NCBI RefSeq assembly: GCF_011602485.2
Contig: NZ_CP050022.2
Coordinates: 5,228,001-5,292,000 of the forward strand
DNA length: 64,000 nucleotides
From: Bradyrhizobium sp. 1(2017)
Lineage (GTDB): Bacteria; Pseudomonadota; Alphaproteobacteria; Rhizobiales; Xanthobacteraceae
Reading direction: 5' to 3'
The notes beneath the pieces are model-generated. The model saw only the letters and a list, made by a program, of their open reading frames with translations. It ran no database searches and was not told where the DNA came from. Each line of letters starts with the position of its first letter. Positions within the stretch are counted from its first letter, which is position 1. This document shows, piece by piece, positions 43,161 through 58,110 of the stretch. The translations under genes and the position numbers were made by a program.

Positions 43161-44159
43161 TTGAAAAATCTCCTCACCGACGTTCCCGGCGTCCGCGTCG
43201 GCCATGCCGAAGACGCGAAAGTCGCCTCGGGCGCGACCGCGATCATCTTCGATTCTCCTGCGGTCGCCGCGATCGACGTCCGCGGCGGCGGACCCGGCAC
43301 GCGCGAAGACGCACTGCTCGATCTCGCCAACACCGTCGAGCGCGTCGACGCGATCGCGCTGTCGGGCGGGTCTGCCTTCGGCCTCGATACCGGCGGGGGC
43401 GTGCAGGCCTGGCTCGCCGAGCGGGGCCGCGGCCACCGGGTTCGCGAAGCGCTGATCCCGATCGTTCCGGGCGCCATCCTGTTCGACCTACTCAACGGCG
43501 GCGACAAGGCCTGGGGACGCTTTTCGCCCTATCGCGACCTCGGCTACGCCGCGGCAGCCGCCGCAGGCACGGACTTCGCGCTGGGCAGCGTCGGCGCCGG
43601 TCTGGGGGCCACCACCGCGACGTTCAAGGGCGGGCTCGGCTCGGCTTCGGCGGTGACACCAAGCGGCGTCAAGGTCGCTGCGATCGTCGCCGTCAACGCG
43701 GTGGGAAGCGTGACCGTCGGCGACGGACCCTGGTTCTGGGCGGCGCCGTTCGAGGTGAACGGCGAATTCGGCGGACGCGGCCTGCCGGACAAGTTCACCG
43801 ACGACATGCTCCGCATGCGCATCAAGGGCGGGCCCGCGGCGAATGCGCGCGAGAACACCACCATCGGCGCCGTCGTCACCGACGCGGTGCTGACCAAGCC
43901 CCAGGCCAAGCGGCTGGCGATGATCGCGCATACCGGCTTTGCCCGCGCGATCTATCCCGTGCATGCGCCGACCGACGGCGACGTGCTGTTCGCCGCCGCG
44001 ACCTGCGAGAAGCCGATCGAGCCGCTGGTCGGCCTGACCGAACTCGGCACGGTCGCAGCCAACGTGGTCGCACGCGCGATCGCCCGCGGGGTTTACGGCG
44101 CGAGCGTCCTGCCATTCCCCGGCGCGCTGCCCGCGTGGAGGGACCGGTTTCGCGATTAG
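43161..44159 (+). CDS. P1 (DmpA/S58) family peptidase
   Basis: 332 residues from TTG 43161, the only start that gives the normal opening LLTDVPGVRVGHAED. Landmarks are the ALSGGSAFGLDTGGGVQAWL segment, the REALIPIVPGAILFDLLNGGD region and RENTTIGAVVTDAVLTKPQAKRLA near residue 235, where this N-terminal-nucleophile family is cut autocatalytically (Thr or Ser becoming the nucleophile). Relatives include L-aminopeptidase D-Ala-esterase and beta-peptidyl aminopeptidases. No neighbour indicates the substrate. Confidence 0.88.
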   Translation: MKNLLTDVPGVRVGHAEDAKVASGATAIIFDSPAVAAIDVRGGGPGTREDALLDLANTVERVDAIALSGGSAFGLDTGGGVQAWLAERGRGHRVREALIPIVPGAILFDLLNGGDKAWGRFSPYRDLGYAAAAAAGTDFALGSVGAGLGATTATFKGGLGSASAVTPSGVKVAAIVAVNAVGSVTVGDGPWFWAAPFEVNGEFGGRGLPDKFTDDMLRMRIKGGPAANARENTTIGAVVTDAVLTKPQAKRLAMIAHTGFARAIYPVHAPTDGDVLFAAATCEKPIEPLVGLTELGTVAANVVARAIARGVYGASVLPFPGALPAWRDRFRD

Positions 44160-44171
44160 TTTGGCACGTCA

Positions 44172-44280
44172 GGTGTCATTGCCCGGCGACGACCGGGCGA
44201 TCCAGTATTCCAGAGACGACAGTGATTGAGCCGGCAGGCCCGCGGCGTACTGGATGCCCGCTTTCGCGGAGCATGACACC
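44172..44280. repeat. GTCATTGCCCGG-type intergenic palindrome
   Basis: GGTGTCAT at 44172-44179 pairs with ATGACACC at 44273-44280; inside, CCCGG-CGACGA-CCGGG forms a hairpin and GATCCAGTA/TACTGGAT pair. It has the same plan as the other GTCATT elements but different arms. Lies between convergent genes. Confidence 0.75.
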
Positions 44281-44307
44281 ATCATCTGTTGAGAGAGCGA
44301 TCTGCGC

Positions 44308-45081
44308 TCACACGCTCATCGACATCGAGGATGCGGCCGATCCCGCCGCGGTCTGCGCCTGGCGCTGCATCATCTGTCCGAACCAGTCATAGGGCGAATT
44401 GCCGCCACCGTTCGCATTTGAAGAACTGGAGGCGCCAGGGACCGTTGTCGACATCTTGAAGCCGTCGGCATAGGTGACGGTGGTGGTAGACGAGCCGTCG
44501 GCATTGGTCGTCGTCGTCGAGGTCGACCCGCCGCTGGACTGCGATCCGTCGCCCGCCCCGCCCGCACCTTGCGCGTGATGATGGCCCTGATGGCCGCCCT
44601 TCAGCGCTTTCGACATCTCGTCGAGGCTGACGCTGCCGTCGGCGTTCGAATCCATCTTCGAGAAGACGTCGTCGGCCTGCGCGAGGTTGGTGCCGCCGGC
44701 GCCCAGCGCGTTCTCGAATTCGGACTTGGTGATGCTGCCGTCGCCGTCCGCGTCGATCTGCGAGAACAGGTCCTTCAGCGCGGCGTCACGGCTCGTCGAG
44801 GTCGAGGATGTCGAGCTGGCCGAGCTGCTGCTCGTGCTGTCCGTCGACTGACCTTGCGCTGCGAACAGCGCGTTCATCGTCTCCGGCGCGATCTGCGGAT
44901 ATTTTCCCGCATTGACCGACGAGGTCGCACCGCTGGTCGTGCTGCTGCCGCTATCGATTGCGAACGGATTGGTTGTGCCTTGGGAAGATCCCGTCTTCTG
45001 CGTCGGGGATGACGATTTCGAGCTCGTCAGCGACTGGATCGCATCGAGTGCGCTCGATACCGCGCCAAGGGCGAACAACAT
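44308..45081 (-). CDS. EF-hand protein with Ser/Thr-rich linkers
   Basis: 257 residues from ATG 45081 (MLFALGAVSSALDAIQSLT); 12 more codons upstream are open but unlikely. Two canonical calcium loops stand in one pair: DADGDGSITKSE (about residue 109) and DSNADGSVSLDE (about residue 145). They are surrounded by low-complexity Ser/Thr stretches and a Gly/His patch (GGHQGHHHAQG). The N-terminus is only mildly hydrophobic and does not look like a standard signal peptide. Similar proteins are common in rhizobia; function unknown, perhaps a secreted calcium binder. Confidence 0.8.
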   Translation of the reverse strand: MLFALGAVSSALDAIQSLTSSKSSSPTQKTGSSQGTTNPFAIDSGSSTTSGATSSVNAGKYPQIAPETMNALFAAQGQSTDSTSSSSASSTSSTSTSRDAALKDLFSQIDADGDGSITKSEFENALGAGGTNLAQADDVFSKMDSNADGSVSLDEMSKALKGGHQGHHHAQGAGGAGDGSQSSGGSTSTTTTNADGSSTTTVTYADGFKMSTTVPGASSSSNANGGGNSPYDWFGQMMQRQAQTAAGSAASSMSMSV

Positions 45082-45334
45082 TGCACAACTCCAACCGACG
45101 CGGCATGCCGCGGCCAATGTTCCGGAGTTGAGGTCAGCAAGCGTCGTGCCAGCGTGAAAAGCTCAATGAAATCCGCCTTGGCTGCGCTTGGCACTGCCCG
45201 GAAGGACCGGCAATTCGTGCCGGTCACGGCAGAAATTTCCGCCCACAGGAAGCAGCCTCCCCCTGCATTGCCGGCCGCAGGGGCCCATGTTAGGCGAGGC
45301 CATTCCTCGTTCGGCCGCCACCGGAAACCGCGCC

Positions 45335-46036
45335 ATGACCCAAGCCTTCGCCCCTCGCCCCCTGGCCATCGCGCCCTCGATCCTGGCCTCGGATTTCTCC
45401 AGGCTCGGCGAGGAGGTGCGCGCCGTGGATGCCGCCGGCGCCGACTGGATCCATCTCGACGTGATGGACGGACACTTCGTTCCCAACATCTCCTATGGCC
45501 CCGACGTCATCAAGGCGATGCGCCCGCATACGAAGAAGATCTTCGACGCGCATCTGATGATCTCGCCCTGCGACCCCTATCTCGAGGCCTTCGCGAAGGC
45601 CGGCTGCGACCACATCACCGTGCATGCGGAGGCGGGTCCCCATCTGCACCGTTCGCTCCAGGCCATCCGCGGCCTCGGCAAGAAGGCAGGCGTCTCGCTC
45701 AATCCGGGCACGCCGATCAGCGCGCTCGAATATGTGCTCGACCTCGTCGATCTCGTGCTGGTGATGTCGGTCAATCCCGGCTTCGGCGGCCAGGCCTTCA
45801 TCCCCTCCGCGATCGGCAAGATCCGTGACATCCGTGCGATGATCGCGGGACGCCCGATCGACATCGAGGTCGATGGCGGCGTCGGTCCCGACGTTGCCGG
45901 CGCGCTCGCAGCGGCCGGCGCCAACGCCTTCGTCGCCGGCACGTCAGTTTTCAGGGGCGGCACGCAGGAAGCCTACAAGGCCAATATCGCTGCAATCCGC
46001 AACGCGGCCGCGGGCGCGCGCGGCGAGGCCATCTGA
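45335..46036 (+). CDS. rpe: ribulose-phosphate 3-epimerase
   Basis: 233 residues from ATG 45335 ([28 protein letters not shown]). TIM-barrel epimerase with the metal and catalytic residues in [65 protein letters not shown] and [12 protein letters not shown]. It interconverts ribulose-5-phosphate and xylulose-5-phosphate in the pentose phosphate and Calvin cycles. It is not next to cbb genes here, so it is the housekeeping copy as far as can be seen. Confidence 0.95.
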
Positions 46037-46079
46037 TCGCCATTCGCGGTCCGAACCGGCCTTGTAGCCGGTGCGACCA

Positions 46080-46634
46080 ATGGGAATGGATGAGATTCGT
46101 GCCACTCCGTTTTCTGCGGGCTTGAGGCGCCTGTGCGCCGAGGCGTTGCTGGACGGCGAGCGGGTGATCTGGGAGGGTCAACCCGACGGCATCGCCCGGA
46201 TGATCATGTGGCGATTTCTGTGGTGGCTCGGATTCCCCTGGCTGCTTCTGACCGTCGTCGCCCTCAGGAACGATTGGGTCGACCAAGCGGCCCAACCTCT
46301 CGTGATGCTGGGAGTTGCAATGATTGCGGCTCCGCTGGTGATGCTGCTGCAAGACCTGCAGACGCTGTACATGATCACCGATCGCCGCGCGCTGATCCTG
46401 CGAACAGCCTGGGGCCGACGGACGGTCAGCCAGACGCCGTTCAAGGCGATGGACGCGGTCTTCGAAATCCTCGACATCGGCGGTGGTGTTGGCCACCTCA
46501 ACTTCGCATCAGGTCGATCGACCCGCTCGCCCGATACCGACTACACCGGCCGCTACGGGTTTCGCTGTGTTCGAGATGCTGCGCGCATTCGCCATATCCT
46601 CGAAGGCGCGCGCGCAGGCAAAACGCGGCGGTAG
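46080..46634 (+). CDS. two-span membrane protein with bacterial PH-like domain
   Basis: 184 residues from ATG 46080; GTG 46071 and ATG 46086 are alternatives. An opening LLDGERVIWEGQPDG, two adjacent helices (about residues 40-85) and then LYMITDRRALILRTAWGRRTVSQTPFKAMD are the pattern of small DUF304/bPH-type membrane proteins. The start lies about 40 bp after rpe on the same strand, so it may be cotranscribed. Function is unknown. Confidence 0.75.
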   Translation: MGMDEIRATPFSAGLRRLCAEALLDGERVIWEGQPDGIARMIMWRFLWWLGFPWLLLTVVALRNDWVDQAAQPLVMLGVAMIAAPLVMLLQDLQTLYMITDRRALILRTAWGRRTVSQTPFKAMDAVFEILDIGGGVGHLNFASGRSTRSPDTDYTGRYGFRCVRDAARIRHILEGARAGKTRR

Positions 46635-46769
46635 CACACGCAAAGACTGCGGCTTTCGGGAGCGGCAGCACGCAATGCTTAAAATTGCCCAAATCCGTAC
46701 TCCTCCGGACTTCCCTGATTCGCGCAAATCACTGCTAGTGATTCTTGCCTGTTTTCGCGGGAGCACATC

Positions 46770-46904
46770 ATGACGACGACCCTGGTTTGGACTGGCGTGG
46801 CGTTGTGGCTTGGTTTCAGTGCGTTTGTTGTGTTTGGCCCTTCGGCCGGACCGGTGCAGGTCCCGGCACGTTCGGCGCGCAGCATCCGTCGCAATCGGAT
46901 CTGA
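46770..46904 (+). CDS. small membrane peptide, 44 residues
   Basis: Opens at ATG 46770 behind GCGGGAGCACATC and ends at TGA 46904. One hydrophobic segment (TLVWTGVALWLGFSAFVVFG, about residues 4-23) is followed by a basic tail VPARSARSIRRNR, the charge pattern of an N-out, C-in inner-membrane peptide. The next small gene begins five bases after the stop. I recognise no family. Confidence 0.5.
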   Translation: MTTTLVWTGVALWLGFSAFVVFGPSAGPVQVPARSARSIRRNRI

Positions 46905-46908
46905 CACC

Positions 46909-47061
46909 ATGCAAGTCGCGCTCGTGAAGCGTCAGCCGAAGCGCAGGTGCCGCATCCCGCGGCGTCCGCATCCGGACCTCGACTATTTCTTCGGTCGGCT
47001 CGAACGCACCGAAGGCGAGATGCGCGACGATCCGGGAGCTGAAGCGGCGGACCTGGACTAA
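46909..47061 (+). CDS. small basic/acidic protein, 50 residues
   Basis: ATG 46909 to TAA 47061. The first 20 residues are strongly basic (LVKRQPKRRCRIPRRP), the rest acidic (RLERTEGEMRDDPGAEAADLD). No signal or membrane segment. It follows the membrane peptide by four bases, which suggests co-translation. The ATG is preferred over a longer frame that would overlap the previous gene. No family recognised; codon use is like that of its neighbours. Confidence 0.45.
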   Translation: MQVALVKRQPKRRCRIPRRPHPDLDYFFGRLERTEGEMRDDPGAEAADLD

Positions 47062-47111
47062 CCGATCGGTCACCGTGCCGGCAATGAGATTCTGAATTGG
47101 ACTTGAGACCG

Positions 47112-47303
47112 ATGAAGCCGCACTGCCCGAACTGCCTGAAGGAAATGACCAAGGCGTCCGCGTCGCGTAACCTGTTCAATTGCGAGCCCTGCCGCGAGAT
47201 CATCCAGTATTTCGGCGGCAGCTGCGATCACGGCGAGCCCGGCCCGCAATTCTCCTGGCCGATCCGCCGCAAGCGCGTCGCGCACACCGCCCACGCGGCC
47301 TGA
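47112..47303 (+). CDS. small zinc-ribbon-like protein
   Basis: 63 residues from ATG 47112; a TTG five codons upstream is the alternative. CPNC at residues 5-8 and CEPC at about 24-27 form a CxxC pair likely to bind zinc, followed by a Gly-rich turn with another Cys/His (GGSCDHGEPG). The basic C-terminus is RRKRVAHTAH. Third in a run of three small codirectional genes after the PH-like protein. Confidence 0.55.
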   Translation: MKPHCPNCLKEMTKASASRNLFNCEPCREIIQYFGGSCDHGEPGPQFSWPIRRKRVAHTAHAA

Positions 47304-47328
47304 TCCGCCGTCCGGGCGCGCAAGCGGC

Positions 47329-48768
47329 CTATCCGGCCGCCTCGCCCGCATCCACGTCAGGCGCATCCCCTGCCATCCGCGGCGGCCGGACCACCGTGAC
47401 GGTGCAACTCGCCTCCGAGGCCACCTTGGCCGAGACGCTGCCGAGCAGCGAGCGCCTGAACGAGCTCTGCCGCGCCCCGATGATGACGTGGTCGACCTGG
47501 TTGACCTCGGCGAACTCCAGGATTGCGGCGGCGGGGTCGACGGCCTCCAGCACGTGAACCGACAGCCGGCTCTCGTCCAGCTTGAGCGGCGTCGCCCAAT
47601 GCCTGAGCGCCACCAGGCGGTCGATATGCTTGTTGGAGCCCTGCTCGTCGAGCGTCCGGTCGATCGCGATACGGTTGAGCTTGAGCACGTTGAGGCAGGC
47701 GAGCCGCGCCGAGGGCAGCGTGGCGAGAATGCGCTCGGCCGTCACGCGCAGCGCCTCGTTCAGCTCCGGTGCGCCTTCCACCGTGTCGAGCGCGACCGCA
47801 AGAATTGGGCTCGACGCGATCTGCGCCGCGACGTCCGCTTTTGCGCGCGGCGCCATGACGCCCAGGTTGAAGCGGCGCCGCCACGCGACGCCGAGGGAGT
47901 CGCGCTTCAGCCGCTCCGCGCGCGCGGTGAGCTTGACCTGGTCCGGATGGGTGAGATCGAAGGCCAGCTGTGCCGCGGTCGGATAGCGCCAGACCGGCTC
48001 GATCTCCAGGCACCGCAGCACCACCTCCTGGAGCCAGGGCGGATAGTCGGCGCGCAATGCCCGCGGCGGATAGGGATCGCGCCACAGACGGCGCCGCATC
48101 GCGCGCAATGTCTCACCCTCGCCGAAGGGGCGCTCGCCCGTGGTGAAGAAGTAGAGCAGCACGCCGAGCGAGAATAGGTCGCTGCGCGGATCGTCACGCG
48201 CCCCGAGCAGCCGCTCCGGCGCCATATAGGGCGCGGTCCCGTAAGGCAGGCGAAATTCCTCCTGCAACAGGTCGGGCAGATGGTTGTGGTGGGACAGGCC
48301 GTAGTCGATCAGCACGGCCTCGCCACTGTCGCGGAACATGATGCTGCTCGGCTTGATGTCGTGATGGATCACGTTCTGCCGGTGCAGGTCGGCGAGCCCG
48401 GTCGCGATCCTCGCCACGAGCTGCCGCGCCTCGTCGTATGGCAGCGGCAGGTCCGGCAGCCGCTTGTACAGCGTCGTGCCGACGATGCGCTCGATCACCA
48501 CATAGGCCTGGTGGGCGAAATCGCCGGTGCCGAAGCAGGCCGGCACGTGCGGCCCCGCAAGCCGCGGCAGGATCATCATCTCCATTTCGAAGGAGACGAT
48601 CGCGGCGGGGTCCTCGCCCTCCGACACCCGCGGGATCTTCATCAGCAAGGGCATGTCGATGCCGGGATGGGTCACGGTCCACAGCGTCGCCATGCCGCCG
48701 GCATGGACGCATTCGCCGATGGTGTAACCGTCGATCTCCGCGCCTGATTTGACCAGCGTTTTGGGCAT
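47329..48768 (-). CDS. Ser/Thr protein kinase fused to a universal stress protein domain
   Basis: 479 residues from ATG 48768 (MPKTLVKSGAEIDGYTIGEC). The kinase domain (about 1-280) has a glycine loop VHAGGMATLW, Lys44 in LLMKIPR, His135-His136-Asp137 with Lys139 in HHDIKPSSIMF, Asp155 in LIDYGLS, and APE in YMAPERLLG. Ser142 stands where nearly all kinases have the magnesium-binding Asn, and DYG replaces DFG. The C-terminal ~140 residues are UspA-like (ILAVALDTVEGAPELNEALR ... HVIIGARQSSFRRSLLGSVSAKVASEASCTVTVVRPP). It follows the phosphoesterase gene by five bases. Confidence 0.88.
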   Translation of the reverse strand: MPKTLVKSGAEIDGYTIGECVHAGGMATLWTVTHPGIDMPLLMKIPRVSEGEDPAAIVSFEMEMMILPRLAGPHVPACFGTGDFAHQAYVVIERIVGTTLYKRLPDLPLPYDEARQLVARIATGLADLHRQNVIHHDIKPSSIMFRDSGEAVLIDYGLSHHNHLPDLLQEEFRLPYGTAPYMAPERLLGARDDPRSDLFSLGVLLYFFTTGERPFGEGETLRAMRRRLWRDPYPPRALRADYPPWLQEVVLRCLEIEPVWRYPTAAQLAFDLTHPDQVKLTARAERLKRDSLGVAWRRRFNLGVMAPRAKADVAAQIASSPILAVALDTVEGAPELNEALRVTAERILATLPSARLACLNVLKLNRIAIDRTLDEQGSNKHIDRLVALRHWATPLKLDESRLSVHVLEAVDPAAAILEFAEVNQVDHVIIGARQSSFRRSLLGSVSAKVASEASCTVTVVRPPRMAGDAPDVDAGEAAG

Positions 48769-48773
48769 CGTCG

Positions 48774-49514
48774 TCAGCGCCCCTGCGACAGGCGGTCGGC
48801 GAGCCAATGCGGCAGGCCGTTGTCCCGGATCCTGCCTGCGGCAGTCGCAACGTCATAGGGCGCGCGACAATAGGTGATCTGGCACGAGACCGTGTCGAAC
48901 AGCACGAAGGATGCCGACGGATCGCCGTCGCGGGGCTGACCGACCGAACCGACCACCGCCAGCCATTGCCGGCCGCGCAGGAGCTGCACGGACACGTCGG
49001 TCTTCGGCACGAAGCTCGTCATCTTCGCCGTCACCGACATCGAGTAGAGCGCCGGCCTGTGGATGTGGCCGCAGAAGGTGACATGGGCCTGTGTCGCGAT
49101 CAGGCTTTTGGCAGCATCCGCGGTCGAGCGGACATAGTGCCAGCGCTGCGGGCTGGAGGCTTCCGAATGCACGAACAGACGGCCGTCGTCCTCCACCAGC
49201 ATCGGCAACTCGGCCAGGAAGCGGCGTTGCGCGGTGTCGAGACGGCCGCGGGTCCATTCGATCGCGACCTGCGCCTCCGCATTCATGGTCTCGGCCGACG
49301 AATTCACCGCCTGGTCGTGATTGCCGCGTATGGCCACGGCGCCGCCGGCGACGAGCTCCATCGCGGTGTCCACGACCCATTCCGGATCGGCGCCATAGCC
49401 GACGAAGTCACCGAGCAGGATGAAGCGCTCCGCGCCTTTCGCACGGGCCATCTTCAGGCTCGCCTCGAACGCCTGCCGGTTGCCGTGGATATCCGAGAAG
49501 ACAGCTAGGAGCAC
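48774..49514 (-). CDS. calcineurin-like metallophosphoesterase
   Basis: 246 residues. All metal motifs are present: Asp8 and His10 in LLAVFSDIHGN, GDFVGYGADPEWV near residue 36, GNHDQAVN near residue 80, and the later His in THVTFCGHIHRPAL. This is the diadenosine tetraphosphatase/YfcE-like branch. It precedes the kinase/USP gene in one operon, so a kinase-phosphatase relation is possible, though the substrate may instead be a nucleotide. Cytoplasmic, no signal peptide. Confidence 0.9.
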   Translation of the reverse strand: MLLAVFSDIHGNRQAFEASLKMARAKGAERFILLGDFVGYGADPEWVVDTAMELVAGGAVAIRGNHDQAVNSSAETMNAEAQVAIEWTRGRLDTAQRRFLAELPMLVEDDGRLFVHSEASSPQRWHYVRSTADAAKSLIATQAHVTFCGHIHRPALYSMSVTAKMTSFVPKTDVSVQLLRGRQWLAVVGSVGQPRDGDPSASFVLFDTVSCQITYCRAPYDVATAAGRIRDNGLPHWLADRLSQGR

Positions 49515-49628
49515 GCATCCTCCACCCTCAAAGGCTTATCGGAACCCGATAAGGCCAAATTGAGGGACGTCAAGACGATGCGCCGGCCGGGCCGGTTTTC
49601 CAGCTGCCTCTGCCGCGAAGGTGAAGGC

Positions 49629-50234
49629 CTATTGCTCGTCCTTTGGCGGCATCCGGGGCGGCGGCAAAGGGGTGAACACGGCGCCTTGGGCGCCGGCCGG
49701 CGGGGCGGTGAATTCGCCGGTCGAGGAATCGCCGCCGCTGGTCTCCAGGATGGTCTTCGGCGTCACATATTCCCGCACCATGTCGATCAGGCTGCCATCG
49801 CCACCGCCGAAATCGGCGGCGCGGCCTCCTTGCGGATGTCCCAATGCGATCTCGTTCTGCGCCGCATGGGTCTTGTTGGCCAGCCTGTCGTCGTAGGGCA
49901 CCCGGAACGCCCGGGGAATGCCGCTCGGACGATTGTCCTCGTCGAGCGCCTCGACCCACAGATAGATCGAGCCAGGATCGCCTTGCAGCGAATGCGGCTC
50001 GACGATGCGGGCCTGGAGCAGCTTGAAAGCGGTCGGCATCCGGTCGGAGCTGGCCCAGCCCAGCAGCCCGCGCATCTCGGAGAAGCTGACGACATAGAAG
50101 GCGCTGGTGATGACGACGGCCACGGCCTTCAGCGACCAGTGCAGCCGCGCATAGACCAGCACGACCAGCAGCAACGCGCCGATGACCGCATAGGCGACCG
50201 ACAAAGTGAGGATGACCGTCTGAAGGCTAATCAC
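49629..50234 (-). CDS. two-span membrane protein, third gene of the ExbB-like operon
   Basis: 201 residues. Two N-terminal helices (about 5-28 and 34-52: VILTLSVAYAVIGALLLVVLVY; LKAVAVVITSAFYVVSF) are followed by a soluble part with FKLLQARIVEP, IYLWVEALDEDNRPSGIPRAFRVPYDD and a flexible Gly/Pro-rich C-terminus ending PPPRMPPKDEQ. No family recognised. Its start overlaps the previous gene by eight bases, so the three products are made together and probably form a complex. Confidence 0.75.
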   Translation of the reverse strand: MISLQTVILTLSVAYAVIGALLLVVLVYARLHWSLKAVAVVITSAFYVVSFSEMRGLLGWASSDRMPTAFKLLQARIVEPHSLQGDPGSIYLWVEALDEDNRPSGIPRAFRVPYDDRLANKTHAAQNEIALGHPQGGRAADFGGGDGSLIDMVREYVTPKTILETSGGDSSTGEFTAPPAGAQGAVFTPLPPPRMPPKDEQ

Positions 50235-50913
50235 GGCGTATCCTCGCAGTGTTCTTGCTCACGCCGGTCCTCGGGTCGAGATCGGCGCCGTTGCGCCAGC
50301 CGCTGCGGAACGTCTCAAGCAGCGATTTCGGCCGCTGGTCGACGTTGACGACCTTGCCCTCGGCATCGATCCGGAACCGCACCGCGGTCTTCTCATCGCC
50401 GGTGTGGTCGAGTGTGAACTTGTTGTCGAAGACCACCTGCGCGGTCGGATTGAGCTTCTGCACCTTCACACTGGCCGTGACGGGTTCGCCCGTCGTCGCC
50501 ACGAAATGCGAGACGTTGACGGTATATTCGCCGGCGAGGATGCCGCGCACCGTGACGATCTCCTCGCGGATGGGCGAGGCGATCTTCTTGCCGGCGACGA
50601 TGATGAAGTCGTTGGCCCCGCCGCGGTCGTCGCGATCGAGCGTGAGGAAGCCGGCCTCGCGGTGCCGGTACCAGGCAATGTTGCCGGCGGGATCCTGCAC
50701 GAACAGGTCGAGATCGTCAGGATGGTTGTCCGGCCAGTCCAGTGTGATCATGAACTCGGCCTTGGAGTCGATCTTGCCTTCCTTGGCGTCCGGGGACACC
50801 GCAAGCAGCGCCAGAAAGAACAGAAATGCGATCACCTGGAGCGCCTTGAACAGCATCACGCCGAGCGGATCGAACGGCTCCTCGCGCGGATACAGACCAA
50901 AATCATCCATCAT
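50227..50913 (-). CDS. single-span protein with periplasmic beta-domain, ExbD-like layout
   Basis: 228 residues. A short cytoplasmic start (MMDDFGLYPREEPFDPLGV) carries Asp15 right before one helix (about 18-40, VMLFKALQVIAFLFFLALL). ExbD, TolR and MotB also have a short N-terminus, a critical Asp and one helix. The periplasmic part is not ExbD-like; it reads as a beta-sandwich (FMITLDWPDNHPDDLDLFVQ, GEYTVNVSHFVATTGE, SVKVQKLNPTAQVVFDNKFTL) like DUF2135-type domains. Overlaps the ExbB-like gene by four bases. Role as stator partner is inferred. Confidence 0.75.
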   Translation of the reverse strand: MMDDFGLYPREEPFDPLGVMLFKALQVIAFLFFLALLAVSPDAKEGKIDSKAEFMITLDWPDNHPDDLDLFVQDPAGNIAWYRHREAGFLTLDRDDRGGANDFIIVAGKKIASPIREEIVTVRGILAGEYTVNVSHFVATTGEPVTASVKVQKLNPTAQVVFDNKFTLDHTGDEKTAVRFRIDAEGKVVNVDQRPKSLLETFRSGWRNGADLDPRTGVSKNTARIRRD

Positions 50914-51680
50914 GACGCTGTCCCGGCACCTTTGCGCTCCAGGACCGGCGTCACATAGGTCTCGGTCAGCACCACCGCATCAGAGAACACCCGCTGGGTC
51001 GCGGCATCGAGCATGTAGTACTGGATGCGGACCAGGATGGAGCCGACGAGGCCCGCCAGCGTCGTGTACATGGCAACCGCCATGCCGTCGCTCATCAGGC
51101 CCATCGAGGACCGCATCGCGACCTTGTCGGCGGCATCCAGGCCCGCGATCGGCGCCAGCATGATGATGAAGCCGATGATGGTGCCGAGCAGGCCGAGCTT
51201 CATCAGCGTGTCCGAGACGAAGGCACCGAAGCCGTTGGAGCCGCGCAGGCGGTCGGCCAGCGTCCGCAGCAGCAGCGTCTGGTCGACCGGCCGGTAGTCC
51301 TGCGCGGCGGCCTTGGTCACCAGGCTCTCGATGTGATCGCGCACGAGGCCGCGCGGCAGCGCCGTCGCACGCCCATCGAGCAGCTTGCCGCCGTCGGGTG
51401 CTGCGAGCGCCGTCCGGCAGCGCCGCGCCGCCGCCCCCTCCCGCGCGATCGCCCGCGTGCGCAGGAAGCAGTGGCCGCAGGTGACGATGTAGAGCACCGC
51501 AATCACGCTCGAAATGTAGGTGCGGTCGGACGTCACCATCAGATGGATCAGGCCAAAGCGCCACAGCAGGACGACGGCGAAGATCGAGAGCCCGGTGAAG
51601 ATCATCCAGAACAAGAGCGCGCTGCGCTCGGATGGGTCGGCAGCCTGCCCCGCGATCGGTCCAATCGTCATCGAACTCAT
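50910..51680 (-). CDS. MotA/TolQ/ExbB-like proton channel subunit
   Basis: 256 residues. Two N-terminal helices (about 22-50 and 55-75), a cytoplasmic stretch of ~80 residues with ALPRGLVRDHIESLV, and two helices near the end (TLMKLGLLGTIIGFIIMLAPIAGL; GMAVAMYTTLAGLVGSILVRI). The last pair carries the family's conserved pattern of small and Thr residues lining the proton path. No tonB, exbD, tolA or flagellar gene is nearby. It is the first gene of a three-gene operon with overlapping reading frames, so the next protein is the probable channel partner. Confidence 0.85.
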   Translation of the reverse strand: MSSMTIGPIAGQAADPSERSALLFWMIFTGLSIFAVVLLWRFGLIHLMVTSDRTYISSVIAVLYIVTCGHCFLRTRAIAREGAAARRCRTALAAPDGGKLLDGRATALPRGLVRDHIESLVTKAAAQDYRPVDQTLLLRTLADRLRGSNGFGAFVSDTLMKLGLLGTIIGFIIMLAPIAGLDAADKVAMRSSMGLMSDGMAVAMYTTLAGLVGSILVRIQYYMLDAATQRVFSDAVVLTETYVTPVLERKGAGTAS

Positions 51681-51891
51681 GCTGCACCGCTCCTGCCCGC
51701 AACGATTGGCCTGAAAAGATCGGCCTGAAGGATTCCAGGCCGATTAGATCAAAGCCGCCGCGCCCGGTCCAAAGAGCCATGCCCAATCCGGCTTGGGAAA
51801 TTTGCCCGAGCTGCCAACTTGCCGTTCCCCGCAATTGGCAAGGGGCGGCGGCGTTGTTAGGCTGAGCTTACCAAACGTTGGGGGTGATCGC

Positions 51892-53262
51892 ATGCGCCTC
51901 GTGCTTCAGCTCGTCGCCCGTCTGCTGCTCATCGTGGCGCTGTGCCTGGGAGCTGCGACGGTGTGGGCCACATTCGACGCCTATCGGAGCGTCGACCGGG
52001 CAACGGCAGCCTCCGCGCAGCGGGTGGCGCAGGCGCTTCAGGCGCTCTATTGGCGCGAGCTCTTGTTGCGGAGCAGCAGAGCGCGCGAGCATCTCCTACC
52101 GGTTCCAGATTGGCGTTCGCTGGAGACGATGAAGCTGATCTCGCCCGGCGTCTGCATCGAGTTCCAGCCCGCCACGGCATTCGAGAAGCCGCTGTGCGGT
52201 CAGAGCGAGGGACTCGGCAAGACGCCGCCGCGCTGGTTCGCCGCGATCGTGCCGAGCTTCCTCGGCAGCCATGCCGAAGTGGTGCGGCCGGTCAGCCCGC
52301 GCGCTGCATCGGCCGGCACTGTGGTCGCGACACCGGACCCCGCAGCCGCAATCTCGCTCGCCTGGGAGTACATTCTCAACGTTATCGACGTCGCGCTGCT
52401 GATGGCAGCGGCAATAGCGCTGCTGGCGTCGCTCGCAATCGCGCATGCACTGGCACCGGCGCGCACCATCGTCACCGCGCTGCAGCGCATGGCGCGCGGC
52501 CAGTATCGCACCAGGCTGCCGCGTTTCCGCTCGATGGAGCTTGCAATGATCGGCAACGCCGTCGATGCGCTCGGCGGCCGGCTGGAGGAAGCGACCGAGC
52601 AGCGCGCGGCACTGACGCGGCGGCTGATCGAGATCCGCGACGACGAGCGCCGCGCACTCGCCCGCGAGCTCCACGACGAGTTCGGACAGAATCTCTCCGC
52701 CATCCTCGCCTTCGCCAACACCATCGAGACCGCAAGCGCGAAGGCCGACAAGGATAGCGGCATCGCGCAGGATGCGCGGATGATCTCGCAGGCGACCCAT
52801 CATCTGATGGCCTCGCTCCGCGATGCGCTGAAGCGCCTGCGCAATCCCCTGCCCGCGGAGCTTGGGCTCGAGGCGAGCCTCGTCAACCTCGTCGACAGCT
52901 GGCGCTCGCAGAGCGCGGCGCGGCCGACGATCCAGCTCGACCTCAAGGGCGACCTCACCGACATCAGCGGTCCGGCGGCCACCACCGCCTATCGCGTCGC
53001 GCAGGAATGCCTGACCAACGCGCTGCGCCACAGCGCGGCCCGCGAGATCTCGCTCAGGATCGAGCGGCGTGCCGGCGACGATGACGCGCTCCTGATCCGC
53101 GTCGAGGACGACGGCGGCGGCGATGCGGAACGCGTCGCGCAATCGGCCGGGTTCGGCCTCACCGGCATCCGCGAACGCGTTGCGGCCGCCGGCGGGTCGC
53201 TGTCGATCCTGCCTGCGAACCGCGGCCTCAGCGTCGCCGCCACCATCCCGCTCGCCGCATGA
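51892..53262 (+). CDS. NarL-type membrane sensor histidine kinase
   Basis: 456 residues from ATG 51892, preceded by TTGGGGGTGATCGC. Two helices (about 5-25 and 160-185) enclose a periplasmic sensor of ~130 residues with a CIEFQP...LCGQ cysteine pair. After a HAMP-like region (ALAPARTIVTALQRMARGQYRTRL) comes a HisKA_3 dimerisation helix with the phospho-His in RRALARELHDEFGQNLSAI. The HATPase part (YRVAQECLTNALRHSAA; VEDDGGGD; GFGLTGIRERVAAAGG) follows. Paired with the response regulator eight bases later. Divergent from the ExbB-like operon. Confidence 0.92.
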   Translation: MRLVLQLVARLLLIVALCLGAATVWATFDAYRSVDRATAASAQRVAQALQALYWRELLLRSSRAREHLLPVPDWRSLETMKLISPGVCIEFQPATAFEKPLCGQSEGLGKTPPRWFAAIVPSFLGSHAEVVRPVSPRAASAGTVVATPDPAAAISLAWEYILNVIDVALLMAAAIALLASLAIAHALAPARTIVTALQRMARGQYRTRLPRFRSMELAMIGNAVDALGGRLEEATEQRAALTRRLIEIRDDERRALARELHDEFGQNLSAILAFANTIETASAKADKDSGIAQDARMISQATHHLMASLRDALKRLRNPLPAELGLEASLVNLVDSWRSQSAARPTIQLDLKGDLTDISGPAATTAYRVAQECLTNALRHSAAREISLRIERRAGDDDALLIRVEDDGGGDAERVAQSAGFGLTGIRERVAAAGGSLSILPANRGLSVAATIPLAA

Positions 53263-53269
53263 GGCCGAC

Positions 53270-53923
53270 GTGAACGATGTCGCGGCAACAGGCATCTCCG
53301 TTCTGCTGGTCGACGACCACCCGATCGTGCGGCAAGGCTACCGGCGCGTGCTCGAAAGCCAGGGCGATCTTCGCGTCGTGGCGGAAGCCGACAACGCCGC
53401 GGACGCCTACGGCGCCTTCAAGGCGCACGACCCCGATGTCGTCGTGCTTGACATCTCGATGCCCGGCGCGAGCGGCCTGGAAGCAATCCGCAACATCCGG
53501 GCGCGCAATCCGCGGGCGCGCATTCTCGTCTTCACCATGCACAACGAAGCCGTGCTGGTGAAAGCCGCCTTCGGCGCCGGCGCCTCCGGTTTCGTCACCA
53601 AGAGCAGCGAGCCGTCCGCCGTGGTGCGCGCCATTCGCGGCGTCGCGCGCGGCGAGCGCGCCATGAGCGACGATGTCGCACATATTCTCGCCGAGGACAG
53701 CCTGTCGCCGACGGGTTCAGTGCTGGATCAGCTGGGCGAGCGCGAGATCGAGATCCTGCGCCAGTTCGCCGGCGGCGCCACCACCGAGCAGATCGCGGCG
53801 CATCTCAATCTCAGCGTGAAGACGGTCCAGAACTACCACTACCTGATCAAGTCGAAGACCGGGGCGCGCACGGACGCCCAACTCGTGCGGCTCGCGGCGA
53901 CGTGCGGGCTCACGCGAATCTAG
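53270..53923 (+). CDS. NarL/LuxR family response regulator
   Basis: 217 residues from GTG 53270. The receiver has Asp15-Asp16, phospho-acceptor Asp61 in VVVLDISMPGASG, Thr in ILVFTMHN and Lys in GFVTKSSEP. The C-terminal LuxR helix-turn-helix is LGEREIEILRQFAGGATTEQIAAHLNLSVKTVQNYHYLIKSK. Cognate of the kinase upstream. Both are close to the ExbB-like operon, which they might control, but no shared site is visible. Confidence 0.93.
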   Translation: MNDVAATGISVLLVDDHPIVRQGYRRVLESQGDLRVVAEADNAADAYGAFKAHDPDVVVLDISMPGASGLEAIRNIRARNPRARILVFTMHNEAVLVKAAFGAGASGFVTKSSEPSAVVRAIRGVARGERAMSDDVAHILAEDSLSPTGSVLDQLGEREIEILRQFAGGATTEQIAAHLNLSVKTVQNYHYLIKSKTGARTDAQLVRLAATCGLTRI

Positions 53924-54033
53924 CAGCAAGACTGCCGCACAGCCTTGGTTCATGGAGCCACTCAATCTGCCGAACGACATGGAACAGAGCGCATGCGGTT
54001 CCGGTTAGTACGACAGTCAAGGAGTCAAAGGTC

Positions 54034-54339
54034 ATGAGTAAGGGTCATCACAACGCTGTCGACCATCCCCCGATCATCACAGTAGGCGAGCTCATCGACG
54101 AACTCTGCCGCTTGCCGGACACCGCCGTCGTCCACTTCCGTTGCCCCATGCTCGAACAGGAACTGACCTTCTATCGCCTGCGCAAGCGGTCAAAGGACGC
54201 CGTGGAAATCGCGGTCAATGCCTATCCGGAAAGTCCCCCGGTCGTGCCATCGTCCGAGGCGAACTTCCATGCGCGCAGACGCTCGGCGTCCTCGCAACCG
54301 GCTCACAATGGCGCCCTGCTTCAGAAGGCACGCGGTTGA
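54034..54339 (+). CDS. small conserved-looking cytoplasmic protein, unknown function
   Basis: 101 residues from ATG 54034, with AAGGAGTCAAAG upstream. The first 70 residues look folded (PPIITVGELIDELCRLPDTAVVHFRCPMLEQELTFYRLRKRSKDAVEIAVN); the rest is polar and Ser/Ala-rich. No family recognised. It sits 110 bp after the response regulator on the same strand and could be a target or neighbour in the same transcript. Confidence 0.6.
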   Translation: MSKGHHNAVDHPPIITVGELIDELCRLPDTAVVHFRCPMLEQELTFYRLRKRSKDAVEIAVNAYPESPPVVPSSEANFHARRRSASSQPAHNGALLQKARG

Positions 54340-54367
54340 CTGGTATGCGGTGAAGAGGTGCGGCGGT

Positions 54368-54955
54368 CTATCCCGCCTTCAGCCCGCGCAGCAGCAGTGC
54401 CAGCGTCGCGTCGACGCGCGCCGGCAGATCGGCGTCCTTCCACTCGTCGGCGTGGGCCGGATGATGGAAGCGGACAGTCGCATCGAACATGGCGCGCGCT
54501 GTGGTCTTGACGTCGTCCACGGCGAAAACGCCCTGCTTGACGCCGTCGGTCAGGATCGCCCCGATCTGGTCGATCATGGTGTCCTTGTGACATTTGACGG
54601 CCGCGCAGGCCTCACGCGCCAGCGTCAGATAGGTTTCGAACATCTCGGGGTCGTCGAGGACGCGCGAACGCTTGGCGGCGAACAGCGTCCGCAGCCAGCG
54701 GTCGAGCCTGTCAGGGGCGGGCCCCTGTTCCTCGGTGATCGCGCGCAACGGCGCGTCGATGCGGTCGAGCCAGCGCTTGGCAACGGCCTCGCGCAGCGAG
54801 GCCTTGCTCGGGAAATGGCGATAGACGCTGCCGTGGCTCACATCGAGCGCACGGGCAACGTCGACCACGGTGGCCTTGGCCAGCCCGAAACGCCTGAGCA
54901 CGTCCTCGGTAACTTCGAGGATCCGCTCCGGCGTCAAGACAACGGCTTCATTCAT
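54368..54955 (-). CDS. TetR family transcriptional regulator
   Basis: 195 residues. The helix-turn-helix is RILEVTEDVLRRFGLAKATVVDVARALDVSHGSVYRHFPSKASLREAV. The C-terminal domain is a usual ligand-binding part. It points away from purB with 570 bp between, a region that holds a 24-bp inverted repeat and a possible 33-residue gene. Its target is not evident because no transporter or enzyme gene lies next to it. Confidence 0.9.
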   Translation of the reverse strand: MNEAVVLTPERILEVTEDVLRRFGLAKATVVDVARALDVSHGSVYRHFPSKASLREAVAKRWLDRIDAPLRAITEEQGPAPDRLDRWLRTLFAAKRSRVLDDPEMFETYLTLAREACAAVKCHKDTMIDQIGAILTDGVKQGVFAVDDVKTTARAMFDATVRFHHPAHADEWKDADLPARVDATLALLLRGLKAG

Positions 54956-55047
54956 GCCAGCACCATGTTCCCGTTCGGGGCTCAGTCACTCCGGCAGTAG
55001 GGCTGCTTCCGAAGCGCCCTGGCCGGTCGTTTCGGAAAGCCTATGCC

Positions 55048-55149
55048 TTAATGAGGCAGTTTTGCAGCCTGCGCCGCGATCTGGCGCGCCACCAGCACAT
55101 TGAGCCAATGCCCAATCACGCCGGTGAAATTGAGGATTTCGGTTGTCAT
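55048..55149 (-). CDS. possible very small protein, 33 residues
   Basis: ATG 55149 to TAA on the minus strand encodes MTTEILNFTGVIGHWLNVLV and on to AKLPH, an amphipathic helix with a clean composition. GGAG lies ten bases upstream. It is 92 bp before the TetR gene on the same strand and could be cotranscribed. No family recognised; it may be a chance frame. Confidence 0.4.
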   Translation of the reverse strand: MTTEILNFTGVIGHWLNVLVARQIAAQAAKLPH

Positions 55150-55288
55150 TGTCTTAAGTCTCCATTCGTCCGCGGTCCCCGTTCTTCAATCTGCCGTCCG
55201 ATCCGAAGGTTGTTCGGATGTCAGGCTCCCCGGGGCTTGTCGCGGGACACTCCAATCGAAGCGTCCGAGAACGGATATACACGTCTCG
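55150..55288. other. intergenic region upstream of purB and the TetR gene
   Basis: No supported gene in this part of the 570-bp gap. A plus-strand frame crosses it but has no ribosome site, and its composition is not protein-like. The stretch is less GC-rich than its surroundings, as promoter regions often are. Confidence 0.4.
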
Positions 55289-55312
55289 CTGACAGATTTC
55301 AATATCTGTCAG
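55289..55312. promoter_or_regulatory. 24-bp inverted repeat, candidate operator
   Basis: CTGACAGAT and ATCTGTCAG form a perfect nine-base inverted repeat around TTCAAT. A second, weaker repeat GTCAAT/ATTGAC overlaps its right side and ends near 55333. Position upstream of the TetR gene and of purB suits a TetR-family operator. Confidence 0.5.
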
Positions 55313-55525
55313 TCAATGATCCGTGATTGACAGCCGATTTTTGGCTCGGGTGCCGCTCGCTCACCCCCGACCGGTGGATAGGTGCTCCCGCGCTCCGCTC
55401 CATCGGCCGGATCGTTTGTTTCGCCCTCCCCGCTCTGCTAAATCGCGGCGTAAAAAGCATTTGGCCGGAGACCCACGCCCCCAATTTCTCCCGGGGCGCC
55501 CCCGCCTACCTCTTGGAGCCGTCAG

Positions 55526-56833
<1,308 letters not shown>

Positions 56834-56843
56834 GCGCGCGTCC

Positions 56844-56916
56844 GTAGCCCGGGTGAGCGCAGCGAGACCCGGGAGCCCAAATCGCAAGAAATCCCGGATG
56901 TCGCTATCCGGGCTAC
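56844..56916. repeat. GTAGCCCGGG-type intergenic palindrome
   Basis: GTAGCCCGG at 56844-56852 pairs with CCGGGCTAC at 56908-56916. Inside, CCCGGGT and ACCCGGG flank GAGCGCAGCGAG, giving a nested hairpin. Different arms from the GTCATT elements. It lies between two genes that both run rightward. Confidence 0.8.
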
Positions 56917-56937
56917 AACACCAGAGACGGAGCCTTC

Positions 56938-58110
56938 ATGCCCATCGTCAACCGCGTTGCCGCCCTCTCCGACGAAATGGCCGCCTGGCGCCATGACTTC
57001 CACGAGAACCCCGAGCTGCAATACGACGTCCACCGCACCGCCGGCATCGTCGCCGACAAGCTCAAGGAGTTCGGTTGCGACGAGGTGGTGACGGGCATCG
57101 GCCGCACCGGCGTGGTCGGCGTGATCCGCGGCCGCAAGTCCGCCTCCGGCAAGACCATCGGCCTGCGCGCCGACATGGATGCGCTGCCGATCATGGAAAC
57201 CTCCGGCGTGCCCTACGCCTCGAAGGTCCCCGGCAAGATGCACGCCTGCGGCCATGACGGCCACACCGCGATGCTGCTCGGGGCCGCCAAATATCTCGCC
57301 GAGACCCGCAATTTCGACGGCACCGCGGTCGTGATCTTCCAGCCCGCCGAGGAAGGCGGCGGCGGCGGCAAGGCCATGGTTGAGGATGGGCTGATGACGC
57401 GCTGGAACGTCCAGGAGGTCTACGGCATGCACAACATGCCGGGCCTGCCCGAAGGCCATTTCGCAACCACCCCCGGTGCGATGCTCGCCTCCTCCGACAA
57501 CATCCAGATCACCGTGCACGGCAAGGGCGGCCACGCCGGCGCCGGCCCGCACAAATCGGTCGACAGCGTGCTGATCGGCTCGCAGATCGTGAACGCGCTG
57601 CAGTCCATCGTCGCACGCAACGTCGATCCGCTGAAGTCAGCGGTCATCTCGATCACGCAATTCCACTCCGGCACGGCCTTCAACATCATCCCCGAGGTCG
57701 CCGAGCTCGCCGGCACCGTGCGCACGCTGGATCCTGAAGTCCGCGATCTCGTCGAGCGCCGCATCGGCGAAGTCGCCGACAGCGTCGCCCGCGCCTATGG
57801 CGGCTCGGCGGAGGTCAAGTACACGCGGATGTATCCGGTGACGATGAACCATGCGCGCGAGGCCGGCCTTGCCGCCGACGTCGCCCGCGACATCGTCGGC
57901 GCCGACCGCGTCAACGACAAGTTCATCCCGATGATGGGCGCCGAGGACTTCTCCTTCATGCTGGAGGCGCGTCCCGGCGCGATGGTGCTGGTCGGAATGG
58001 GCGACGGCAACGAGTGCCACCACCCTGCCTACGTCTTCAACGACAACATTCTGGGCCACGGCGCCTCGTTCTGGGCGCGTCTCGTCGAGACGAGGATGCC
58101 GGCGGGATAG
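56938..58110 (+). CDS. M20 family amidohydrolase (hippurate hydrolase-like)
   Basis: 390 residues. Metal and catalytic motifs: RHDFHENPELQYD at the start, GLRADMDALPI, MHACGHDGHTAMLL, IFQPAEEGGGGGKAMVEDG and the final GAEDFSFMLEARPGAMVLVGMGD. The dimerisation domain begins at ASSDNIQITVHGKGGHAGAGPH. The family removes N-acyl groups from amino acids (hippurate, N-acetyl-amino acids, indole-acetyl conjugates). The substrate is not shown by context. Confidence 0.92.
   Translation: MPIVNRVAALSDEMAAWRHDFHENPELQYDVHRTAGIVADKLKEFGCDEVVTGIGRTGVVGVIRGRKSASGKTIGLRADMDALPIMETSGVPYASKVPGKMHACGHDGHTAMLLGAAKYLAETRNFDGTAVVIFQPAEEGGGGGKAMVEDGLMTRWNVQEVYGMHNMPGLPEGHFATTPGAMLASSDNIQITVHGKGGHAGAGPHKSVDSVLIGSQIVNALQSIVARNVDPLKSAVISITQFHSGTAFNIIPEVAELAGTVRTLDPEVRDLVERRIGEVADSVARAYGGSAEVKYTRMYPVTMNHAREAGLAADVARDIVGADRVNDKFIPMMGAEDFSFMLEARPGAMVLVGMGDGNECHHPAYVFNDNILGHGASFWARLVETRMPAG

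Follow-up and report, generated by a model that had tools for sequence, protein, structure and literature searches.

The locus lies in a 64,000-nucleotide stretch of the Bradyrhizobium sp. 1(2017) genome (hereafter, the window), which itself is one contig of 7.86 Mb. Three genes, called A, B and C in reading order, lie on the minus strand. Gene A (50910..51680) encodes a predicted channel subunit of 256 residues from the MotA/TolQ/ExbB family with four predicted transmembrane (TM) helices, as judged by PF01618, alignment and hydropathy; gene B (50227..50913) encodes a 228-residue subunit on the ExbD/MotB plan, with a TM helix at residues 16-39 and a DUF2135-like domain at 54-192; and gene C (49629..50234), which has a GTG start, encodes a 201-residue protein with a TM hairpin (4-57), a beta-rich domain (~67-142) and a low-confidence tail. 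The coordinates of the open reading frames bore out the three genes of the original prediction as well as its overlaps of 4 to 8 bases, which are 4 bp between A and B and 8 bp between B and C. We found no promoter-like site and two terminator-like sites versus 1.5 expected, and an Rfam search of positions 44000-57000 gave no match. The nearest named relatives of B are from Bradyrhizobium.

The trio is flanked on one side by a kinase fused to a universal-stress (Usp) domain and a metallophosphoesterase (47329-49514, minus strand) and on the other by a histidine kinase/LuxR-type regulator pair (51913-53923, plus strand). Of 73 full-length Bradyrhizobium loci, all have the metallophosphoesterase and the kinase/Usp gene; the histidine kinase and the regulator are each present in 71. 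Among 20 other loci, the former two genes were found in none, and kinase-like and regulator-like genes, both from large families, in 3 and 6, respectively. The neighbors point to no role, none being common to all loci; some are common to related distant pairs, e.g. L127 and L128. The genome contains nine matches to PF01618, seven of them over the cut-off, and A is the sole one inside the window. Profile searches of the window gave no match to ExbD, the OmpA domain or TonB_C, of which there are four, nine and four elsewhere in the genome. Thus, the earlier statement that no TonB, Tol, Mot or Zorya genes are near holds for the four families that this check took in (PF01618, ExbD, OmpA-domain and TonB_C). 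A serine- and glycine-rich protein encoded at 44308-45117 (minus strand) carries D-x-D-x-D-G motifs in its translation, which we take to be EF-hand-like.

The window A protein matched PF01618 (MotA_ExbB) with E=1.4e-8 and 35.0 bits (cut-off 22.9) over residues 143-231, which correspond to the last two helices. This agrees with the expectation of an ExbB-like protein in which these two helices are conserved, and a hydropathy scan refined the total to four helices, as in MotA. Residues D52, G163, G166 and T207 were invariant across 50 aligned rows, 45 of which matched PF01618 at E<=0.01, and every one of the 196 loci with A, those of Bradyrhizobium among them, has Thr at residue 207. Judged by sequence similarity, A is a member of the MotA/TolQ/ExbB channel family. 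Phage A proteins from three large IMG/VR contigs also scored over the PF01618 cut-off, the protein of phage P10VF scored 20.1 bits, below it, and that of phage 16-3 matched no Pfam family. The spacing from D52 to G163 was 111 residues in the window, 38-45 in five phage isolates and a median of 58 in 79 IMG/VR loci. The IMG/VR proteins were short (134-210 aa, median 171; 78 found in the best 80 of 309 stretches) and aligned across the helices of A; A of RHph_N3_19, as annotated, has 113 aa and is without the first helix.

An AlphaFold2 model of B (mean pLDDT 80.9, mostly ~90 in the domain) placed a helix at 16-39 immediately after Asp15, followed by a beta domain at 54-192 that is taken to be periplasmic, and so matched the predicted plan of a short N-terminus, Asp15 before a single helix and a beta domain. 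Neither B nor C of the window reached any cut-off in Pfam or NCBIfam, and the proposed HMM search of the 228- and 201-residue proteins matched no model of a described stator subunit. The ExbD model (PF02472) and the OmpA domain (PF00691) were both unlisted for window B at E<=1 and for 27 members at E<=0.1. The beta domain, which had been considered an unfamiliar partner, proved recognizable as DUF2135-like by hhalign: a profile-profile comparison with DUF2135 (PF09906), using a profile built from 11 of 17 fetched rows, gave 96.7% probability and E=4e-10 (one comparison), with a score of 61 versus at most 18 in 30 column shuffles. Single B proteins gave borderline matches, with 4 of 27 reaching E<=0.1 (the best at 8.8e-4) and no match for window B; JGI names several relatives 'YfaP (DUF2135 family)'. 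On the strength of these profiles, we regard the domain as homologous to DUF2135. Its fold is TerD-like in a comparison that, like that of C, speaks only for the families included in it; TerD was not supported as a sequence relative (hhalign probability 0.8% local and 0.2% global) and was kept as a fold match. Assignment of B to the PPC-domain proteins was rejected (window match just E=0.15). Plain Foldseek with B at E<=0.001 gave no PDB match and, in BFVD, the uncharacterized viral proteins I7JBZ3 (Campylobacter phage CP21, 1.5e-4) and A0A7D0GQ91_1 (5.4e-4).

In the AlphaFold2 model of C, residues 4-28 and 33-57 form the two helices of a hairpin, and the protein also has a compact domain, in keeping with the predicted two helices and soluble part. 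This domain (~67-142) gave weak OB-like fold matches, and window C matched no Pfam family at E<=1. Relatives of C gave scattered Pfam matches, in 1-3 of 57 members each and at best TrAA12 (E=3.7e-7) in one member, which we do not count as evidence for a family.

We surveyed 200 loci with B, not all of them independent (L003 and L036 resemble one contig, and L001 is the window itself), and found that A adjoins B in 196, C in 197 and both in 194. Both neighbors were present in 79 of 80 Bradyrhizobium contigs (best 80 of 296 genome stretches), 20 of 22 loci of the window's own family, 10 of 10 distant proteobacteria, 2 of 3 same-order sister loci, 5 of 5 phage isolates and 78 of 80 IMG/VR stretches (best 80 of 309). 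In the six loci without the full trio, the contig starts there (L028 and L183), B is truncated (L021) or is an additional copy (L022), or C was undetected (L137) or lies ~1 kb off (L223). The three genes therefore stay together, and the contrary outcome considered at the outset, that the partners occur mostly without the ExbB-like gene, is contradicted by the count for A. Within the own family, B and C were found in the identical 21 of 149 genomes, and in a phylum-wide sample B was matched in 24 of 397 genomes, three of these weakly. Relatives of the distant members among the matches listed come from Burkholderiales (Ideonella, Hydrogenophaga, Methylibium and others) and gammaproteobacteria (Thiothrix among others). 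Because loci were found by patterns, which required residues at B 92-101 for the IMG/VR set and at B 60-67 and 26-33 for the genome-contig set, conservation at these residues is partly circular; positions 15, 19, 69, 118 and 174 of B lie outside the patterns.

Several loci depart from the common layout. One genome has a second B copy (L139, 12375-13058; G021:C56, the gene of L022) with A and C not found beside it, on a contig that ends 0.9 kb downstream. In L128 (10187-11250), C occurs in two tandem copies after A and B, and this locus has the only distant B without Asp19. L202, L204 and L223 contain ~0.9-1.0 kb of additional sequence, perhaps an inserted gene, between B and C. The contig of L078 is titled Frankia sp. 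RB7; its locus is Bradyrhizobium-like (93% identity to B), and the label looks doubtful.

Relatives of B were found in 27 of 50,697 phage records, representing 19 differently named phages, some of near-identical length, and the hosts of all 27 are Rhizobium or Sinorhizobium. The trio was present in the five isolates fetched, i.e., 16-3 (genes p038, p040 and p042), RHph_N3_19, P10VF, RHph_TM3_3_14B and RHph_X2_25, in three of which small or homing-endonuclease genes are interspersed. A pattern scan of IMG/VR yielded 309 encoding stretches, and six among the best 80 of these are on contigs of 202-527 kb. The trio family is widely phage-borne, which the original prediction missed. In 14 of 80 IMG/VR stretches, a viral origin is supported by a protein family of which the single member tested is a large terminase. 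The few genes tested on the six largest contigs gave no viral hallmark (two from L155 match PHROGs of unknown function), so the viral nature of these contigs rests on IMG/VR. Searches of PHROGs assigned no family to the phage A and C proteins tested (three of each), and the matches of phage B, all at E>=0.001, were confined to families of unknown function. Judging by their neighbors, two of the sister loci, L136 and L138, resemble prophages.

Other genes recur near the viral trios. A gene for a trypsin-like protease directly precedes A in TM3_3_14B and X2_25, is separated from it by one small gene in 16-3 and lies 2-3 kb downstream of A in N3_19, and a trypsin-like reading frame was noticed by eye near A in L136 and L138. 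On large viral contigs, a volactin-family protein, presumably actin-like, is encoded within 3 kb of the trio in L156 (8637-9641), and a full HSP70 within 3 kb in L155 (3380-5269) and L185 (2884-4773).

All 199 alignable B proteins in the 200-locus census have an aspartate at position 15 or 19, and its position follows the group. Asp19 only was found in 80 of 80 IMG/VR stretches (best 80 of 309), 5 of 5 phage isolates and 3 of 3 sister loci, and Asp15 with Val19 in 80 of 80 Bradyrhizobium contigs (best 80 of 296) and 21 of 21 readable own-family loci (one family fragment was unreadable). Nine of 10 distant proteobacteria have both Asp15 and Asp19; the tenth, L128, has Asp15 with Ala19. The anticipated conservation of Asp15 was thus upheld within the window's own group but not in phages. 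Because Asp19 is lost to Val in this group, the Bradyrhizobium version may be inactive as a motor. All 99 loci with A from Bradyrhizobium and the own family retain its residues T206, T207, G163 and G166, and the unchanged pore Thr207 argues that ions still pass in the group with Asp15 only. Lys161 of A was present in 109 of 109 loci with Asp15 and in 0 of 87 without it (one of the 87 being a gap); because both residues coincide with one clade, the pairing may reflect a single event rather than strong covariation. Bacterial rows formed one group beside the viral rows in a tree of 61 chosen rows (31 of 80 IMG/VR; SH-aLRT 99) and one group in a tree of 32 chosen rows (10 of 80 IMG/VR; support 99/95); both trees are unrooted and therefore leave the order of phage and bacterium undirected. 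The tree suggests that L128 lost Asp19 independently, as a second event, but a single origin was not rejected (AU p=0.18).

Membership of the trio in the ExbBD, Tol, Mot or Zorya systems was rejected on the tests for ExbD, the OmpA domain and ZorA. MotAB/PomAB share with it the family and four-helix plan of A and a B that combines a single TM helix with an Asp close to its N-terminal end, whereas the B of the trio has no OmpA match, the loop of phage A is short, gene C is added and no flagellar genes were noticed beside it. ExbBD/TolQR also have an A subunit of this channel family, and the D-[LM]-L-F motif of phage B presumably resembles that of ExbD/TolR; in contrast, the trio has a DUF2135/TerD-fold domain where the ExbD model finds no match, adds C and lies in a window without TonB_C. 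We know of no counterpart of C in TonB/ExbBD- or Tol-type systems. Zorya ZorAB likewise has a MotA-family subunit, and ZorA profiles (best E=1.4e-6, PADLOC) matched A solely across its TM region, but the NCBIfam ZorA score was 16.8 bits versus a cut-off of 500, the trio is without an OmpA-domain partner, and it occurs in phages. The B domain is related to DUF2135 (YfaP) by profile and resembles TerD by fold, neither of which is, to our knowledge, part of an ion-motor subunit.

Previous studies described motor-class members in motility, Ton, Tol, type I secretion and Zorya defense (PMC12204202), and the available parts of that paper and of PMC9389320 name no phage-borne motor. The available part of PMC12505986, in which ExbBD and TolQR are the generic ion transporters, covers diverse non-flagellar relatives, some of unknown function, and mentions phage solely for Zorya. 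In deep-sea Lentisphaerae phage genomes, an ExbB-annotated gene was reported as a TonB energizer and possible metabolic helper (PMC11361711, in the part available), so the presence of such a gene in a phage has a precedent; this gene is what those genomes have in common with our trio, and no trio is described there. The titles and abstract openings listed from the open-access literature contained no such trio, DUF2135-bearing stator partner or phage-borne stator partner, and the whole word 'DUF2135' was not found in the literature searched, where 'YfaP' does occur. The main text on phage AP-16-3 (PMC10460002) contains neither 'ExbB' nor 'membrane protein', and the sole mention of 'ExbB' in the paper on XacN1 (PMC5852040) is in its reference list.

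Altogether, we consider it probable (roughly 0.6) that the trio is one inner-membrane complex and a new family, with phage-borne spread, in the MotAB/ExbBD/TolQR class of ion-driven motors. This reading is backed by the homology of A, the modeled architecture of B and C, the conservation of the three genes together, their occurrence in phages and the difference in aspartate position. The evidence also partly supports the proposal of a separate ion-driven envelope machine, in that A belongs by similarity to the channel family, B and C match no stator model and the trio is conserved. A ring-and-axle ion motor is established for the MotAB and ExbBD families. What we infer of ring stoichiometry, membrane topology, ion flow, force and role is that a ring of A most likely holds a pair of B, whose helices would bear the aspartate that binds the ion close to their cytoplasmic end; ions passing through the interface of A and B would turn or tilt B; and the DUF2135/TerD-fold domain of B, with the domain of C docked on top, would pass the force to the cell envelope. 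Phages would apply the motor to the envelope of the cell that they infect, and one of its lineages would be an operon fixed in the chromosomes of Bradyrhizobium and other proteobacteria. A bolder version, which gives phage-host transfer a direction and which we hold only tentatively, is that many phages, some with contigs of >200 kb, encode a rotary ion motor for the host envelope, that proteobacteria took it over, and that in the Bradyrhizobium group the axle aspartate moved by one helical turn via a living two-aspartate intermediate, matched by the ring lysine.

The constancy of Val19 in Bradyrhizobium and the own family, and the unfailing company of Asp15 and Lys161, would also fit a retired motor that moves no ions and acts passively, as a sensor or scaffold in the envelope, in which Asp15 only forms a salt bridge with Lys161 of A at the cytoplasmic face. 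We consider this unlikely, since the Thr and Gly residues of A named above are intact and the existence of two-aspartate members makes a handover possible.

A regulated proton channel or ion leak that exerts no force, with which the phage version would lower or tune the host membrane potential in the timing of lysis or the exclusion of other phages, is less likely still. It could account for the loss of most of the cytoplasmic loop from phage A and for the lysozyme or endopeptidase genes that precede A by ~3-4 kb in TM3_3_14B and X2_25. However, ExbB-type motors likewise have small cytoplasmic parts, a conserved folded domain in B and a third subunit would be superfluous for a leak, and in N3_19 and P10VF the trio is surrounded by genes for replication and metabolism, the annotation of the 9 kb fetched including no lysis gene. 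We give very little weight to an accessory or diverged ExbBD/TolQR copy that energizes known TonB- or Tol-type partners, despite the shared family of A and the label 'Biopolymer transporter ExbD' given to one relative by UniRef, as the ExbD and OmpA models are not among the B matches (at E<=1 for the window and E<=0.1 for 27 members), the window has no TonB_C, ExbD or OmpA-domain match, four ExbD matches lie elsewhere in the genome, and C has no known counterpart in those systems.

If the trio is an ion-driven motor, as we favor, its presence in phages would make one ask why a virus should draw on the host ion gradient to act on the envelope, in a system that includes cultivable temperate phages such as 16-3. 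With the natural series of Asp19, Asp15 with Asp19, and Asp15, the distance over which the ion site of such a motor can shift could be tested directly.
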